64,000 bases of DNA from positions 1 to 64,000 of the forward strand of contig NZ_JARUKV010000019.1 in the NCBI RefSeq assembly GCF_029688865.1, in the 5' to 3' direction. Both the position numbers and the translations under genes were made by a program. Below are positions 39,038 to 47,912 of the stretch, piece after piece (within the stretch, counting starts at the first letter, position 1; every line of letters begins with the position of its first letter). This DNA comes from Natronococcus sp. A-GB7. GTDB lineage: Archaea; Halobacteriota; Halobacteria; Halobacteriales; Natrialbaceae. The notes under the pieces are model-generated. The model searched no databases. It saw nothing but the letters and a program-made list of their open reading frames with translations, and was not told where the DNA came from.

Positions 39038-41323
39038 ATGACCGAACGCGACTACGTCAGCGAGGCCGACCGCACCTTAGAGGAGACGTACGAAGAGCCG
39101 ATGAGCCTCGCGAACTACGTCGACCGGGTGTTCGAGAACCCGACGATCGCCTCCCACGCCTCGAAGTACCTGCTCGAGGCGATCGAAGCGGCCGGCACCC
39201 GCACCGTCGTCGAGGAGGGCGAGGAGAAGGAGCGCTACCGCTTCTTCGACGATCCGCACAACGACGGCGAGCACGCGATCCTGGGCAACACCGAGGTGCT
39301 CAACCGGTTCGTCGACGACCTCAGGTCGATCGCCGCGGGCCGGGCGAAAGACGAGAAGATCATCTGGTTCGAGGGGCCCACGGCGACGGGCAAGTCCGAA
39401 CTCAAGCGCTGTCTGGTCAACGGGCTGCGCGAGTACTCGAAGACGCCCGAGGGACGCCGGTACACCGTCGAGTGGAACATCACGACGGCCGACGTCGAGG
39501 AACGAGGGCTGAGCTACGGTGCCGATCCGACGACCGTCGACGACGCCCACTGGTACCAGAGTCCGGTGCAGGCCCACCCACTGTCGGTGTTCCCCGACGC
39601 GGTTCGGGAGGAGCTACTCGAGGAGGTAAACGACGACCTCGAGGACCACGTTCCGGTTCGGGTCGACGCCGCGCTGGACCCCTTCTCCCGGGAGGCGTAC
39701 GGCTATCTCGAGGAACACTACCGCCGCGAGGGGAAGGAGGCGCTGTTCTCGGCGATCGCCGACGACCAGCACCTCCGCGTAAAGAACTACGTGGTCGACA
39801 TCGGCCAGGGCGTCGGTGTCCTGCACAGCGAGGACGACGGCCGACCCAAGGAACGGCTCGTCGGCTCGTGGATGCACGGAATGCTCCAGGAGCTGGACTC
39901 GCGGGGCCGAAAGAACCCGCAGGCGTTTAGCTACGACGGCGTCCTCTCGCAGGGCAACGGCGTCCTCTCGATCGTCGAGGACGCGGCCCAGCACGCCGAC
40001 CTGCTCCAGAAGCTGTTGAACGTTCCCGACGAGCAGTCGGTGAAACTCGACCAGGGGATCGGGATGGATATCGATACGCAGATGCTGATCATCTCGAACC
40101 CCGACCTCGAGGCACAGCTGAATCAGCACTCCGACCGCAACGGGATGGACCCGTTGAAGGCGCTCAAGCGCCGCCTCGACCGCCACCAGTTCGGCTACCT
40201 GACGAACCTGAGCCTCGAGACCGAACTCATCCGCCGGGAGCTGACGAACGAGACGTCGGTCTGGGAGGCCGACCACTACCTCGATCTGGCCGATCGGATC
40301 CGCGAGCCAGTGACGGTGACGGTCAAGGATCGGGACGGCGAGCCGAGCCGCCAGGAGTTCGCCCCCCACGCGCTCGAGGCCGCGGCGCTGTACGCTGTCG
40401 TCACCCGCCTCGATCAGGAGGACCTGCCCAACGGACTGGATCTCGTCGACAAGGCGATGATCTACGATCAGGGCTACCTCCAGGAGGGCGACAACCGCCG
40501 CGAAAAGGACGAGTTCGACTTCGACGGCGACGGCCGAGACGGCGACGGCGGGATCCCCGTTACCTACACCAGGGATACCCTCGCCGAGTTGCTCCAGACC
40601 GATCGGGATCGCCACCACTCGGAGCTGGCGGTCGAGAACGTCGTCATGCCACGGGACGTGCTGAACGCGATGGCCGAAGGGCTCTCGGACGCACCCGTGT
40701 TCTCGACGGGCGAGCGCTCCGAGTTCGAGAACCGGGTCGTCCCCGTGAAGAACTACGTCTTCGACCAGCAGGAAAGCGACGTCATCGAGGCGATCATGCA
40801 CGAGAAACGCGTCGACGAGGAGACCGTCGCCGAGTACGTCGAACACGTCTACGCCTGGGAGACCGACGAGCCGCTGTACAACGACCGCGGCGAGCGCGCC
40901 GAGCCCGACCCGCTGAAGATGAAGCTGTTCGAGGTCGAACACCTCGGACGCTTCTCGGAGGCCGAGTACGAGGGCAACCTCCCCAGGGAGAGCGTTCGGA
41001 ACTTCCGCCGCGAGAAGGTCATCACGTCGTTGAACCGCCACGCGTGGGAACACCGCGACGAGGACTTCTCGGTCCAGGACGTCGACCTCACTGCGATCCC
41101 GGTTATCAAGTCCGTTCTCGAGAGCCACGACTGGGACGACGTCGAGCGAACCTTCGAGGACTTCGACCCTCGCCAGTGGGACGACCCGCCCGGCGGCACG
41201 GAGACCGAGACCGTCAAGGAACGGACGATCGGGACGATGGTCGAGCAGTTCGACTACTCTCCCGCGTCGGCCGAACTGACCAGCAGACACGTCATGGGAC
41301 AGGTGTGTTACAGATGGGACTGA
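39038..41323 (+). CDS. PrkA-type serine protein kinase 2
   Basis: 761 residues, related to but diverged from the first kinase. Walker A is a variant GPTATGKSE (113-121). [38 protein letters not shown] (about 276-299), [22 protein letters not shown] and the [18 protein letters not shown] segment follow. The N-terminal [31 protein letters not shown] is typical of haloarchaeal second PrkA copies. It starts one base after the prkA stop and overlaps the next gene by 10 bp, so the module is one transcript. Two PrkAs together suggest a heteromeric kinase. Confidence 0.88.
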
Positions 41324-42648
41324 GAGACGACCTCGAGCGATTCCGCGAGGTGGGCGAACAGCGCCGCGAGGATCTGGCCGACTTCATCAAGTACGGCGAC
41401 CTCGGCGGGGGCCGGCCCGATCAGATCCAGATCCCCGTCAAGATCGTCTCCTTGCCGGAGTTCGAGTACGACCAGCGCGACCAGGGCGGCGTCGGCCAGG
41501 GTGACGGCGACACCCCGGACGTCGGCCAGCCCGTCGGTCAGCCCCAGCCCCAGCCGGGCGACGGCGACGACGACGGCGACGGCGACGAACCCGGCGAGGA
41601 GGGCGGCGACCACGAGTACTACGAGATGGACCCCGAGGAGTTCGCCCAGGAACTCGACGAGGAGCTGGGACTCGACCTCGAGCCGAAGGGCAAGAAGGTC
41701 GTCGAGGAGAAAGAGGGTCCCTTCACCGACCTGACTCGAACCGGGCCGGACAGCACGCTCGACTTCGAGCGGATGTTCAAGGAGGGGCTCAAGCGCAAGC
41801 TCGCGATGGACTTCGACGAGGAGTTCCTGCGGGAGGTCTGCAAGGTCGAGGGCTTCGGCCCGCGAGACGTCTTCGAGTGGGCCCGCGGCGAGAGCATTCC
41901 GGTGTCGATGGCCTGGATCGAGGACGCCTACGACGACGTTCCGCCCGAGGAACGCGGTGCGTGGGCCTCGATCGAGGAGCTCGAGGACAACGTCGAACGC
42001 CAGAGCGTCCAGCAGAAGATTCGCCGCGAGGGGATCAAACACGTCCCGTTCCGCCGGGAGGACGAGCGCTACCGCCACCCCGAGATCATCGAGGAGAAAG
42101 AGAAGAACGTCGTCGTGGTCAACATCCGGGACGTCTCGGGCTCGATGCGCGAGAAGAAACGCGAGCTCGTCGAGCGCACGTTCACGCCGCTGGACTGGTA
42201 TCTGACCGGGAAGTACGACAACGCCGAGTTCGTCTACATCGCCCACGACGCCGAGGCCTGGGCGGTCGAGCGCGAGGAGTTCTTCGGCATTCGTAGCGGC
42301 GGCGGGACGAAGATCTCGAGCGCCTACGAGCTCGCCGACGAGTTGCTCGAGGAGTACCCCTGGAGCGACTGGAACCGCTACGTGTTCGCCGCGGGCGACT
42401 CGGAGAACTCCTCGAACGACACCGAGGAGCGGGTGATCCCGCTGATGGAGTCGATTCCGGCGAACCTCCACGCCTACGTGGAGACCCAGCCCAGCGGCAA
42501 CGCGATCAACGCCACCCACGCCGAGGAGCTCGAGCGCCACTTCGGGCGCGACGCCGAGGACGTCGCGGTGGCCTACGTCAACGGTGCCGACGACGTGACC
42601 GACGCGATCTACGACATCCTCAGCACGGAAGGTGATACCGATGAGTAA
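41314..42648 (+). CDS. YeaH/YhbH (DUF444) family VWA-domain protein
   Basis: 444 residues. An acidic Gln/Pro/Asp/Gly-rich low-complexity linker (about 53-100) is followed by the DUF444 core with a von Willebrand A MIDAS motif (DVSGS at 273-277, [15 protein letters not shown]), [20 protein letters not shown] (about 325-344) and a long C-terminal acidic region. YeaH/YhbH is the constant partner of PrkA/YeaG and SpoVR in bacteria and archaea. The ATG overlaps the second kinase by 10 bp and the SpoVR start by 8 bp. Probably a metal-dependent protein-protein adaptor. Confidence 0.9.
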
Positions 42649-44668
42649 CTCGAACTCCAACGCCGACAGGTTCCGCAAACAGGCGATCGCGACCGATCTC
42701 GAGGAACCGGTCCGGGAGGCGCGCAACCTCGCCCGGAAGCTGGGCCTCGATCCGTACCCGGTCAAGTACTGGATCGTCGACTACGACGAGATGAACGAGC
42801 TCATCGCCTACGGGGGCTTCCAGTCGCGGTACCCCCACTGGCGGTGGGGAATGCAGTACGACCGCCAGCAGAAACAGGGCCAGTACGGCGGCGGGAAGGC
42901 CTTCGAGATCGTCAACAACGACAACCCGGCCCACGCGTTCCTCCAGGAGTCGAACACGCTGGCCGACCAGAAGGCCGTCATCACCCACGTCGAGGCCCAC
43001 TCCGACTTCTTCGCGAAAAACGAGTGGTTCGGCCTGTTCACCAGCGGCCAGTCCGACGAGGGGCAGGTCAACGCCGCCGCGATGCTCGAGCGCCACGCCC
43101 GCGCGATCGACGAGTACATGTCCGACCCCGAGATCGACCGCGCGGAGGTCGAGAAGTGGATCGACCACTGTCTCAGCCTCGAGGACAATATCGATCAACA
43201 CCAGGTGTTCAGCCGGCGCCTGGAGATCGACGGTCCCGCCGAGGAGATCGACGAGGACCTGGCGGCGAAACTCGACGAGCTGGGGCTCTCCGAGGAGATC
43301 AAGGGCGAGGTGTTCGACGACGAGTGGCTCGAGAAACTCGAGGGCGAGGACGGTCCGGTCAACTTCCCCGAGGAACCCCAGAAGGACGTGCTGTCGTTCG
43401 TCCGCGAACACGGCAAACAGTACGACGACGACGCGGGTCGAGCCGTCGAGATGGAGCCCTGGCAGCGCGACGTCCTCGACATGATGCGTGCGGAGGCGTA
43501 CTACTTCGCCGCCCAGAAGATGACGAAGGTGATGAACGAGGGGTGGGCCGCCTACTGGGAGTCGACGATGATGACCGACGAGCGTTTCGCCGGCGACGAC
43601 GAGTTCCTCAACTACGCCGATCACATGGCGAAGGTCCTGGCGTCGGGCGGTCTCAACCCCTACAGTCTCGGGATGGAACTGTGGGAGTACGTCGAGAACA
43701 CCACCAACCGCCGCGAGGTTCTCGAACGGCTGCTGCGCGTCGAGGGCATCTCCTGGCGCAACCTGACCGACGTCGTCGACTTCGACGCGGTGCTCGAGAC
43801 CCTCGAGCCCCCGGACGCGCTCGCGAGCGTCGACGTCGCCGGGCTCGACGAACTCGCCGAGCTGCCCGACGAGTGGGTCGACCGCGAGGCCCTCGAGTGT
43901 GCCCGTGACGGCGAGATCGATCTCGAGCGCTACCCCTGGAAGGTCCTCACCTACGAGGGGCTGGCCCGCCGACACTACTCGCTCGTCAAACGCCAGCACC
44001 GCGGCTTCCTCTCCCGCGTGAACCAGAACGAGCTCGAGCGGATCGGCCGGTACCTCTTCGACGACGAGCGCTACGCCTCGGTCGAGGAGGCCCTCGCCGA
44101 CGTCGAGTTCGCCGCGGGCTGGGATCGGATGTACGACGTCCGGGAGAGCCACAACGACGTCACCTTCCTCGACGAGTTTCTCACCCAGGAGTTCATCACG
44201 GAGAACAACTACTTCACCTACGAACACTCCCAGGCGACGGGGCAGTTCCACGTCGCCAGCGACGCCGCCGAGGACGTCAAGAAGAAGCTCCTGTTGCAGT
44301 TCACCAACTTCGGGAAGCCCACGATCGCGGTGTACGACGGCAACTACAACAACGCCAACGAGCTCCTGTTGGGCCACCAGTACAACGGCGTCATGCTCGA
44401 TCTGGGCCAGGCCCGCGAGACGCTGAAACGGATCTTCGAGCTCTGGGGGCGGCCGGTGAACCTGCTGACGATCGTCAAGGAGGTCGACGAACACGACATC
44501 GAGGTCGCAAAGCGGCGCAACCGCGAGCCAGAGCCCGAGGAGCGGGGTAAGCTCATCCGCTACGACGGCACCGAGGTGACGACCGAGAGCGTTTCCTGGG
44601 AGGAGGTCGACCACCTCGCGGCCGACGACGTCGACTACGATACCAAGCCCGAGGAGTGGCTTGCCTAG
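42641..44668 (+). CDS. SpoVR family protein
   Basis: 675 residues. [45 protein letters not shown] (about 26-70) is the SpoVR signature; [25 protein letters not shown] (about 285-309) follows, and the C-terminal part includes [52 protein letters not shown]-like segments. Function is known only through co-occurrence with PrkA and YeaH (sporulation or stress module). The ATG at 42641 overlaps the previous stop. Final gene of the module, followed by a 65-bp gap. Confidence 0.92.
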
Positions 44669-44701
44669 CTGGCTCTCTCGAGTAGCGGACAGTCGTAACG
44701 C

Positions 44702-44708
44702 TTTTATT
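44702..44708 (+). promoter_or_regulatory. TATA box of the HEAT-repeat protein gene
   Basis: TTTTATT about 29 bp before the ATG at 44734, fixing that ATG against an in-frame start nine codons upstream, which would overlap the box. Confidence 0.55.
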
Positions 44709-44733
44709 GATTTTCAGACATAGGGTAGACGAG

Positions 44734-45747
44734 ATGGACTGGGATGGGGGCCAAACGGTCGAGCAGCAACAGCGATCCGAGTCGGTAGAGCTACCGGTAG
44801 TACTCGCCGAACTCGACGCGACTGATTCGACGACCAGGCAGGAGGCCGTCCGGACCGTCCGCGACGGGGTCGAGAGCGAGCCCGGAACGTACGTGCCGAC
44901 GGTTCCGAAGCTCCGCGAACTCCTTCAGAAACCGGCGTTCGAACTCCGGGAGGCGGTCGCCTACTCCCTGGCGGAGCTTGCGGTCGAAGCCCCCTCCGAC
45001 GTCGCCCCGTCGGCCGACACGCTCGTCGCGGTCGCGGCTGAGAACCCGGACACGGCAGCGACGGGAGAGCTGCTCCGGTGTCTCGCCGCGGTGGCTGCCG
45101 AACGTCCGACCGCGCTCGCGGATCACGTCCCTACGATCGTCGACGTCACCGAGGGTCGGGACGGCGACGAGTGGGGAATCCGGACGCTGGCACACGTCTC
45201 CCGGGCACGGCCGGAAGCCCTCGAGCCCGCCCTCGGGCTGCTGACCGAGACGCTGGCGTCGGCACCGGGCGACGACGCCGTCCCGGCGCTGTCCGTGCTC
45301 GGTCGGCTCGCCCGCTCGGAGACGGAGCTCTCCTCGCTCGCGTTCGTCGAGCACGCCATCGACCTCCTCGACTGTGACGACGGGGAGCTCCGGCGCAACG
45401 CGATCGGCTGTCTGGCCGACGTCGCCCACCGCCGACCCGAGGCCGTCGAGCCGGCCCGTTCGCAGGTCCGAGCAGCCCTCGAGAGCGACGATCCCAAAAC
45501 GCGGGCCAACGCCGCGGTGACGATCGGACGCGTCGCCGCCGCCGACCCGTCCGTCGTCGAGCCGGTACGCTCGCGGCTGGTCGAGTTGCTCGAGGACGAC
45601 CACCAGTACGTTCGGGCCAACGCCTGCATCGCGCTCGGCCACGGGAACGTCACCGAGGCCCGCGACCGACTCTCGACGCTCGCGACCGGGGACCCGGAAC
45701 CGTCGGTCCGCGACCGAGCGGCGTGGGCCTGCGGAGAGCTCTCCTAG
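44734..45747 (+). CDS. HEAT-repeat protein
   Basis: 337 residues made of helical repeats with recurring Ala/Leu/Arg patterns: LAELDATDSTTRQEAVRTVRDGV, LRELLQKPAFELREAVAYSLAELA, LLDCDDGELRRNAIGCLADVAHRRPEAV, VRAALESDDPKTRANAAVTIGRVAA and LVELLEDDHQYVRANACIALG. These are HEAT/PBS-lyase-like pairs used as binding platforms; no catalytic site is present. The partner is unknown. It converges with the phosphodiesterase gene, and both stops use the same CTAG. Confidence 0.85.
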   Translation: MDWDGGQTVEQQQRSESVELPVVLAELDATDSTTRQEAVRTVRDGVESEPGTYVPTVPKLRELLQKPAFELREAVAYSLAELAVEAPSDVAPSADTLVAVAAENPDTAATGELLRCLAAVAAERPTALADHVPTIVDVTEGRDGDEWGIRTLAHVSRARPEALEPALGLLTETLASAPGDDAVPALSVLGRLARSETELSSLAFVEHAIDLLDCDDGELRRNAIGCLADVAHRRPEAVEPARSQVRAALESDDPKTRANAAVTIGRVAAADPSVVEPVRSRLVELLEDDHQYVRANACIALGHGNVTEARDRLSTLATGDPEPSVRDRAAWACGELS

Positions 45748-46412
45748 TACCCTTCGAGCTGAATCGGTCGATCCGCCGAGATACAGTCGACTCCACACAG
45801 TCCGAGTAGCCGCGCCGTCGTCCACCGCTCGATCGCCCAGGCGTGGATCTCGAGGTCGACCCGCTTGGCCCGTTCGACGAGTCGCGTCGTCAGACACCGC
45901 CAGTAGTTCGCGCCGATGACGTCGCAGTCGAGTTCGACCGCCGTCGTCACCGGGGTCTCGAGCCGGCGACTGACGAGCAGTCCGGTCGGCTGCTCGCGAT
46001 CGAGTTCCCGTATCGCGCGTAGCTCGGGCAGCAGGAAGGAGGTGACGACGACCCGGTTCTCGACCCCCTCGAGGGCATCGAGGACGTCCGCGGCGATCCC
46101 CTCGGCTTTCATCTCGAGGTTGATCTCGAGGTGGTCGGGGACGGCCGCGAGCATCTCCTCGAGGGTCGGGATCCGTTCCCCGGAGTCGAGCACCGACAGC
46201 GAGCGCAGTTCCTCGAGCGGGGTATCGACGACTGCTCCCTCGACACCCGTGACGCGGTCGGTCGTCTCGTCGTGGACGACGACGAGTTCACCCGACCCGC
46301 AGCGCCGAACGTCGAACTCGACCGCGTCGGCGTGTGCCGCCGCGGACTGGACCGCAGCGATCGTGTTCTCCGGTGCCGTCGCGGCGAAACCCCGGTGGGC
46401 GATCAGACGCAT
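45744..46412 (-). CDS. glycerophosphodiester phosphodiesterase
   Basis: 222 residues. MRLIAHRGFAATAPENT carries His6 and Glu15. Glu32 and Asp34 in AVEFDVRR and His47 in VVVHDETTDR complete the GDPD metal and catalytic set; the TIM-barrel end includes IHAWAI and ISADRP. It hydrolyses glycerophosphodiesters from lipid turnover to glycerol phosphate plus alcohol. MRLIAHRG at 46412 is right because a TATA-like box (GATAAATAG, about 46437-46445) lies 25-30 bp upstream; the longer open frame reads through it. Confidence 0.92.
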   Translation of the reverse strand: MRLIAHRGFAATAPENTIAAVQSAAAHADAVEFDVRRCGSGELVVVHDETTDRVTGVEGAVVDTPLEELRSLSVLDSGERIPTLEEMLAAVPDHLEINLEMKAEGIAADVLDALEGVENRVVVTSFLLPELRAIRELDREQPTGLLVSRRLETPVTTAVELDCDVIGANYWRCLTTRLVERAKRVDLEIHAWAIERWTTARLLGLCGVDCISADRPIQLEGY

Positions 46413-46445: not shown

Positions 46446-46573
46446 ACGGCGGATGCCCGCGTCCAAGGACATGGTCCGGACGCCGATCGATTCACGGAAC
46501 CGAACCACAGTTCGAACGATAATATTCCTGCGTCCCGTATTATTAAATTCACCAAGTACTATCGGCAAACAAG

Positions 46574-46599
46574 CTTATATAGGATCGGAATACATATAA
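46574..46599 (+). promoter_or_regulatory. TATA boxes of the receiver-domain gene
   Basis: CTTATATAGG near 46574-46583 and TACATATAA near 46591-46599, about 20-40 bp before the ATG at 46618, in an AT-rich spacer shared with the divergent GDPD gene. Confidence 0.45.
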
Positions 46600-46617: not shown

Positions 46618-47118
46618 ATGGAAAGCAAGCAGTTCTCGACCCCGGACGCTTCGGCGCTGGGGCGATCGCAGTACGAGGCCGGGTCCGAAGACCGCGCCCG
46701 GGTGTTGCTGATCGAGAACGACCCGGAGGACGCGCGACGAGCCCGGGAGGCGTTCGAGACGGTCGCGACGGAGACCGAAATCGAGGTGGCGCCCGACGGC
46801 TCGGCCGCGCTCGAACTCCTGGGCGAGCGGGTCGAGGAGGCCGAGCGGATCCCGGATCTCGTCTTGCTGGCACTGGATCTGCCGGAGGTCGACGGGTTCG
46901 AGTTCCTCGAGACCGTTCGGGGTGACGAGAACCTCGTTCAGTTGCCGGTGTTGGTGCTGACGGACTCGAGTGCCTCCAGTGACGTCAACGACAGCTACGA
47001 GCGGGCCGCGAACGCCTACCTCGCGAAGCCGTCCGATCCCGACGAGTTCGAGACGGTCGCGGGTGCCATCGAGCGATTCTGGTTCCAGCGGGTTTCGCTT
47101 CCGCCACACGGATTCTGA
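46618..47118 (+). CDS. degenerate receiver (response-regulator-like) protein lacking the phospho-acceptor Asp
   Basis: 166 residues with one receiver domain, about 27-155. The strand 1 motif VLLIENDPED (acidic residues Glu33, Asp35), strand 3 PDLVLLALDLPEVDG, Thr115 and Lys137 (AYLAKPSD) are typical of the Rcp1-like haloarchaeal receivers. The usual DLVLLDLNLP phospho-Asp, however, is Ala85 here, with Asp at 87. It should not take phosphate in the normal way and is probably a pseudo-receiver. The short N-terminal extension (about 1-26) is unstructured. No kinase gene is adjacent. Confidence 0.85.
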   Translation: MESKQFSTPDASALGRSQYEAGSEDRARVLLIENDPEDARRAREAFETVATETEIEVAPDGSAALELLGERVEEAERIPDLVLLALDLPEVDGFEFLETVRGDENLVQLPVLVLTDSSASSDVNDSYERAANAYLAKPSDPDEFETVAGAIERFWFQRVSLPPHGF

Positions 47119-47189: not shown

Positions 47190-47912
47190 ATGAGCCCGCA
47201 AACGACGTTCGACGTGGAGTTTACCGATACCGTCGCGGTCGTCACCGGCGCGAGCGGCGCGCTCGGCAGCGCGGTCGTCGACCGCTTCCGAACCGCCGGC
47301 GCGACCGTCTGTGCCGTCGACGTCGTCGAACCCGACGACGAGGACAGCCTGCTCGAGCCAGACGATCGAACCGAGTTCTACGAGGCCGATCTCACCGATG
47401 AGAGCGAGGTTTCGGCCCTCGTCGAGGAGGTCGTCGACGATCACGGCCGGATCGATCACCTCTGTAACGTCGCCGGCACCTGGCGCGGCGGTCAGCCGAT
47501 CGAGGAGACCGACCTCGAGGAGTTCGACCTCCTGATGGACGTCAACCTGAAGACGGCGTTTCTCGCCTCGAAGCACGCCCTCCCACACCTCCAGGAGACG
47601 GAGGGATCGATCGTCAACATTAGCGCCCGCTCGTCGCTCGAGGGTGGCGAGGGCGACGGCCCCTATCGGATCACGAAGGCCGGTATCCGACTGCTGACCG
47701 AAACGCTTGCCGCGGAGAACTCGGGCGTCGTCCGGGCGAACTGCGTGATGCCGAGCGTGATCGACACGCCGATGAACCGCGAGATGATGTCGGACGCCGA
47801 CCACGACAAATGGGTCGATCCCGGGGAGATCGCGAACGTAATGGCGTTTCTCTGTAGCGACGGGGCCGCGGTGACCAGCGGCGCGGCCGTCCCGGTGTAC
47901 GGCGAGGCGTAG
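47190..47912 (+). CDS. short-chain dehydrogenase/reductase
   Basis: 240 residues. Cofactor motif TGASGALG (about 19-26), NVAGTWRGG (about 93-101), Ser in NISARSS (about 146-152) and the YRITK catalytic Tyr/Lys (YxxxK, about 161-165). These are the classical SDR features, NAD(H)-leaning from the acidic residue after strand 2 (VDVVEPDD). Substrate unknown. ATG at 47190 is preferred; the open frame extends ten codons upstream without family character. No clear partner gene. Confidence 0.9.
   Translation: MSPQTTFDVEFTDTVAVVTGASGALGSAVVDRFRTAGATVCAVDVVEPDDEDSLLEPDDRTEFYEADLTDESEVSALVEEVVDDHGRIDHLCNVAGTWRGGQPIEETDLEEFDLLMDVNLKTAFLASKHALPHLQETEGSIVNISARSSLEGGEGDGPYRITKAGIRLLTETLAAENSGVVRANCVMPSVIDTPMNREMMSDADHDKWVDPGEIANVMAFLCSDGAAVTSGAAVPVYGEA

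Follow-up and report, generated by a model that had tools for sequence, protein, structure and literature searches.

A Natronococcus receiver protein without its phospho-acceptor aspartate is retained throughout its genus and may act by binding

The open reading frame at positions 46618 to 47118 (+) of the window, that is, of the whole stretch of 64,000 nucleotides from Natronococcus sp. A-GB7 analysed here, encodes a single-domain, Rcp1-type response regulator in which the phospho-acceptor aspartate is replaced by alanine, and the aspartate is missing from this protein throughout the genus. We see about an even chance that it is a once-phosphorylated regulator which has been retained as a pseudo-receiver and acts as a constitutive binding module, with its level set by transcription. 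The protein adds an archaeal case to a class that is itself known, the aspartate-less receivers.

Gene, protein and active site

The gene and the codons of its active site are:

46618 to 47118 (+): pseudo-receiver gene, 166 aa, with a single Response_reg domain and a C-terminal tail FWFxRVSLPP as in Rcp1-like regulators
46714 to 46722 (+): codons 33 to 35, Glu-Asn-Asp; Glu33 is kept (DD1), Asn34 stands in place of the metal-ligand Asp (DD2)
46870 to 46872 (+): codon 85, GCA, Ala, at the phospho-acceptor position
46876 to 46878 (+): codon 87, GAT, Asp, at position D+2, which is Asn in most canonical same-locus copies
46960 to 46962 (+): codon 115, Thr, kept here; Ala in 2/9 genus members
47026 to 47028 (+): codon 137, Lys, kept in 9/9 genus members

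The protein matches the receiver profile (PF00072, Response_reg) over residues 29 to 145 with E = 1.9e-16 and 60.6 bits against a curated cut-off of 30.2, and its one REC domain, its C-terminal tail and the type of its nearest solved structures make it a regulator of the Rcp1/DrRR type. By sequence, these nearest solved relatives are the phytochrome regulator of D. radiodurans (DrRR, 6xvu; E = 2.7e-26) and other Rcp1-like proteins; among the PDB matches listed by Foldseek for the predicted model, 6xvu is also the best (Z 22.5, rmsd 1.6, 135 residues). This model, which has a mean pLDDT of 75.9 with values below 50 for residues 1-23 and 159-166, contains a complete alternating receiver fold with strand 3 at residues 81-85. 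In the alignment, Ala85 falls on the acceptor Asp of canonical relatives, and since residue 85 is the last of strand 3 in the model, Ala85 is predicted to occupy the acceptor place and Asp87 to lie two residues further on, in the loop.

Set against a canonical regulator, the protein thus has no acceptor aspartate at the end of strand 3 (Ala85; Ala, Asn or Thr across the genus) and only one of the two acidic metal-site residues (Glu33, next to Asn34), and it retains both switch residues, Thr115 and Lys137. As a receiver-profile match without the acceptor, it is by definition an aspartate-less receiver. The preliminary description of this DNA, a receiver with Ala85 at the phospho-acceptor site and with Thr115 and Lys137 still in place, is therefore right in coordinates, strand and sequence, and alignment and model agree with it. 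It had further described the acidic pair as shifted ('ENDPED'); the segment is better read as canonical E-D-N turned into E-N-D, with Glu33 kept and Asn34 at the DD2 site.

Conservation within the genus

The protein is present in all nine genomes of the genus, the other eight copies being 60-92% identical to that of the window, and named records at 89-92% identity come from Natronococcus sp. A-GB1, N. amylolyticus and a Natrialbaceae MAG. Site 85 is Ala in five, Asn in three and Thr in one of the nine, and Asp in none, and the DD2 site is likewise non-acidic throughout (Asn in seven, Ser in two). Glu33 and Lys137 are kept in 9/9 members and Thr115 in 7/9; position 87 is Asp or Glu in all nine (Glu in three), and position 35 is invariably Asp. 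The absence of the aspartate from nine genomes rules out a single-strain change or an assembly error.

Conservation of Ala85 among orthologues had been proposed as a check on the preliminary description, and it holds for the lack of aspartate in 9/9 genomes, though for alanine itself in five only. Aspartate-keeping orthologues, combined with an alanine confined to a single strain, had been named there as grounds against it; such orthologues do exist in other genera (see below), but the change is not that of a single strain, the loss being genus-wide. With both the acceptor and the DD2 metal ligand missing, normal uptake of phosphate would not be expected from the sequence, and the earlier suggestion that a receiver so impaired probably works by binding is supported.

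Genomic neighbourhood and promoter

The gene is flanked by the following features:

46568 to 46583 (+): candidate promoter AACAAGCTTATATAGG, a sequence match, with a TATA-like core TTATATA at 46575-46581
45744 to 46412 (-): glycerophosphodiester phosphodiesterase (GDPD) gene, divergent neighbour, probable ATG start at 46412; adjoins the regulator in 18/20 loci
47190 to 47912 (+): short-chain dehydrogenase (SDR) gene, downstream neighbour, probable ATG start at 47190; used as synteny anchor

Upstream of the start codon, TTATATR preceded by ACA(A/G) is kept in 9/9 genus genomes, and the DNA farther upstream has diverged. The SDR was found in 120/125 genomes of the family at E 1e-80, and the regulator lies 5' of it in each of the 20 loci that were fetched. 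Genes for DUF444, SpoVR and HEAT-repeat proteins are grouped on one side, 5' of the regulator (41044-45747 of the window), all three of them in 17/20 loci, and the HEAT protein is the least conserved of the three; in many loci, branched-chain amino-acid transport genes are located on the other side.

Regulators at the same locus across the family

We read 119 other family regions 5' of the SDR gene, counting any receiver encoded on the same strand at a distance of up to 1200 bases. Such a receiver was found in 74 regions, which together with the window gives 75 locus copies; within the same limits no regulator was found in the remaining 45, which shows that the locus can do without one. When 392 genomes of the order were searched, with nine candidates at most scored per genome, the only match from beyond the family at E 1e-38 was G202.

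In a quick tree of the 75 locus copies, 34 non-locus copies and five paralogues of the same genome, one branch (SH-aLRT 86) separates the locus copies, and genus g8 is placed beside the genus of the window (SH-aLRT 80), both supports being moderate. It is therefore unlikely that the locus copies are unrelated insertions, since paralogues and second copies stand apart from them, though by that one branch of a short alignment. An earlier, midpoint-rooted quick tree had placed six paralogues of the genome beside g8 and the genus. The g8 regulators have the same neighbours as the window gene (divergent GDPD, downstream SDR) and share 47-50% identity with its product over all aligned columns, or 52-53% in BLAST alignments. 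In contrast to the window regulator, the same-locus regulators of g8 and of most other genera keep the aspartate.

The acceptor site of the 75 locus copies is Asp in 63, Ala in five, Asn in four, and Thr, Tyr and Gly in one each. On a tree built from few columns, with the trait columns excluded, the fewest changes between Asp and non-Asp that account for these 75 copies are four, three of which lie outside the genus and concern single genomes (G064, Asn; G101, Tyr; G088, Gly). Although this count is blind to direction, we infer loss rather than gain, since Asp is what the wider family normally has, and it is found in 34/34 non-locus copies that were read. The acidic pair, Asp, Thr and Lys are all kept in g8 (3/3), throughout g4, g5, g6, g10, g12, g13, g21 and g25, and in 9/10 copies of g23 and 4/5 of g17. 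Altogether, 27/75 locus copies differ from this set of five active-site residues; G081, extracted without its N-terminal part, would be the 28th. In g14 and g16, the metal-site or Thr residues are altered in many locus copies. Four g16 genomes (G070, G073, G074 and G084) have a locus copy in which Asp is kept and both the first acidic residue and Thr are Ala, and each has a canonical second copy elsewhere in the genome.

One way to accept the loss of Ala85's predecessor without loss of phosphorylation would be an altered but working acceptor, with Asp87 (or Asp35) taking the phosphate with the help of Lys137 and Thr115, and Asp87 had indeed been put forward as a substitute in the preliminary description. 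The genus keeps an acid at position 87, Asp at position 35 and Lys137 in 9/9 members, and 11 of the 12 Asp-less locus copies have an acid at position 87. However, position 87 is Glu in 3/9 genus members, and an acid is already present there in 24 of the 63 Asp-keeping copies, so that Asp87 is no replacement that arrived with the loss; moreover, the DD2 site is non-acidic in all nine members, Thr115 is Ala in two, and Asp87 lies beyond the end of strand 3 (residue 85) in the predicted model. We thus consider a substitute acceptor highly improbable.

The variability of the locus bears on a further alternative, relaxed constraint, according to which the regulator is becoming dispensable here and is drifting to loss, its task having passed to canonical paralogues. 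This is consistent with the 45/119 regions without a receiver 5' of the SDR, and with the 27/75 locus copies with a changed active site against 0/34 non-locus copies, a biased contrast since resemblance to a canonical query had been the criterion for choosing the 34. It is also consistent with g14 and g16, where many locus copies are decayed and canonical second copies occur in 1 and 14 genomes, respectively. Yet in g10 the genomes G031 and G036 have canonical second copies as well as intact locus copies, and the 14 further copies read in the genus itself are placed, in the quick tree, outside the clade formed by the family's second copies; a spare copy is thus insufficient as the sole cause of loss. 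Considering also the evidence for selection given below, we regard relaxed constraint as rather unlikely.

We tentatively suggest, as something possible rather than probable, that at one conserved chromosomal slot of this haloarchaeal family regulators controlled by phosphorylation have repeatedly given rise to phosphate-free ones, and that in the genus selection maintains the outcome as a constitutive binding protein. This suggestion is based on the four acceptor changes on the tree and on Asp-keeping relatives in which the metal site or position D+2 has already changed. If it is true, the locus represents a natural series for how archaeal pseudo-receivers arise and act.

Selection and distribution of changes

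The reading frame is intact in 9/9 genus genomes. Within the genus the median dN/dS of the regulator is 0.27 over 36 pairs (0.16 for the SDR neighbour), with 0.15-0.24 among the four closest members; for comparison, it is 0.06 in g10 and 0.30 in g8, which keeps Asp and is represented by 3 pairs. The regulator evolves faster than the SDR, with a median dN ratio of 2.40 in the genus compared with 2.15 in g8 (3 pairs). Selection is therefore still acting, and neither the dN ratio nor dN/dS shows a clearly stronger relaxation in the genus than in g8. Intact frames, dN/dS values well below 1 and the conserved promoter-like box indicate that the gene is kept and probably expressed. The frames, the low dN/dS among the four closest members and the box argue against a drift to loss, as does the concentration of change in the pocket.

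This concentration becomes apparent at conserved sites, taken as those with an identity of 85% or more among 35 canonical locus copies. Of the 20 such sites that lie in the four pocket loops, 8 differ in all nine members (34, 35, 37, 85, 87, 90, 116 and 139), compared with 1/46 elsewhere. If sites 34 and 85 are set aside, since the finding itself is defined by them, the figures become 6/18 and 1/46 (Fisher p 0.0014). The pocket loops had been chosen with the alignment already in view, and the nine genomes are related by descent, so this p is no more than a guide. As a control, the pocket sites that at least one member fails to keep come to 12/20 in the genus, 0/19 in g8, 1/20 in g10, 1/19 in g23, 3/20 in g12, 5/20 in g13 and 6/20 in g17; the genus thus stands out, and g13 and g17 show part of the same drift.

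That sites 34, 35, 37, 87, 90, 116 and 139 changed together with site 85 might also mean that the rearranged, acid-rich pocket receives an input other than phosphate, sensing a ligand, a metal or salt, and pockets re-organised for other inputs have been proposed in Maule 2015 (PMC4395418). The acceptor residue, however, varies between Ala, Asn and Thr within one genus, unlike what would be expected of a fixed binding pocket, and we consider such an input very unlikely.

Along alpha4, beta5, alpha5 and the tail (residues 119-135 and 140-163), 15/19 conserved sites are kept in all nine members and none is changed in all nine. As this face is also conserved in Asp-keeping relatives, and as retention is about as high at conserved sites that belong to neither pocket nor face (20/27), its conservation does not prove a binding role.

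Proposed mode of action and other receivers of the genome

Under the reading that we prefer, a retained pseudo-receiver acting by constitutive binding, a single-domain Rcp1-type regulator formerly switched by phosphorylation of Asp would have become a pseudo-receiver in the ancestor of the genus. It would bind constitutively through the conserved alpha4-beta5-alpha5 face and the C-terminal tail, and its partner could be a second copy of itself (homodimer) or one of the canonical paralogues of the same cell (heterodimer); canonical paralogues are present in the genome. Control by phosphorylation would be replaced by control of the protein level, set by transcription. A constitutive dimer face is proposed by analogy with DrRR, the nearest solved relative, which crystallised as inverted 4-5-5 dimers via its alpha4-beta5-alpha5 face (PMC8292422).

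The genome contains 25 receiver stretches above the Pfam cut-off, of which 24 were readable (C1:265790 was excluded). Automatic alignment classifies six of these 24 as Asp-less, namely the window protein (Ala) and those on contigs C27, C47, C33 and C22 (Glu) and C45 (Ala), with C27 taken from a separate alignment; Asp-less receivers are thus not rare in this genome. Three of them (C27:46759, C47:3395 and C33:16955; L009, L011 and L010) are single-domain receivers with VEPN(Q/P)GD and LLEP(Q/K)LP motifs, in which Glu occupies the acceptor site and Pro the metal site, and they constitute a second, separate Asp-less family of three copies. A receiver fragment with an in-frame TAG stop at C32:4422-4733 (L014, L302) is perhaps a pseudogene.

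Instead of binding to itself or a paralogue, the protein could, as the preliminary description had also put forward, be a decoy, binding to a histidine kinase but accepting no phosphate from it and thereby competing with a canonical regulator. The receiver fold is kept in the predicted model, the genome encodes canonical regulators of the same type along with 31 HATPase_c matches, and binding competitors are named as a possibility in Bourret 2025 (PMC12632262). Against this, none of the 31 HATPase_c matches is located on the contig of the window. The equivalents of four kinase-contact residues of RR468, taken from a PDB title, were located by applying throughout the offset of 24 found where the structure alignment begins; site 37 is changed in 9/9 genus members, and site 41, which is Leu in 35/35 canonical copies, is Arg in 6/9, while sites 38 and 45 are unchanged. 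No positive sign of a decoy emerged, the indirect signs speak against it, and we consider it unlikely.

Significance and comparison with known systems

The value of this protein lies in the genus-wide fixation of the loss together with same-locus orthologues in different states, which make it a traceable archaeal case. Intact, intermediate and Asp-less orthologues occur at one locus among related haloarchaea, at least one of them in a cultured type strain (N. amylolyticus DSM 10524), and with this series one can ask what a regulator still does once its phosphate switch is gone. In the literature searched (open-licence papers), no title or abstract on the protein was found.

Aspartate-less receivers (ALR) were defined in Maule 2015 (PMC4395418), where Ala and Asn account for 9% and 16% of the replacements, respectively; up to 10% of archaeal receivers are Asp-less according to the same source, with the highest numbers in Halobacteria and Methanomicrobia. 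Bourret 2025 (PMC12632262) gives approximately 10-15% for archaea, its authors stating that no functional work on an archaeal example has, to their knowledge, been published. DD1 is kept more often than DD2 in ALRs (PMC4395418, PMC12632262), and the window protein, which keeps DD1 and Lys and has lost DD2, follows this commoner pattern. It resembles ALRs or pseudo-receivers such as FrzS, which has Ala at the acceptor site (PMC4395418), in combining a receiver fold with a missing acceptor, and differs from them in being archaeal and single-domain, with no attached effector; FrzS is absent among the 50 PDB structure matches listed for the predicted model.

Its best matches in sequence and structure are the phytochrome regulators of the Rcp1/DrRR type (6xvu, 1i3c, 1k68), which are similar in length and C-terminal tail. 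DrRR, however, possesses the residues conserved for receiver function and has a phytochrome kinase as its partner (PMC8292422), whereas the window protein lacks the aspartate and has no kinase (HATPase_c match) on its own contig. Stand-alone REC proteins make up about 40% of archaeal regulators, and, as described in Galperin 2018 (PMC5847659), most of them keep the aspartate and have no conserved neighbourhood. The window protein is a REC-only protein like the CheY-like archaeal set described there, and with its missing aspartate and its conserved neighbourhood it breaks both of these rules.
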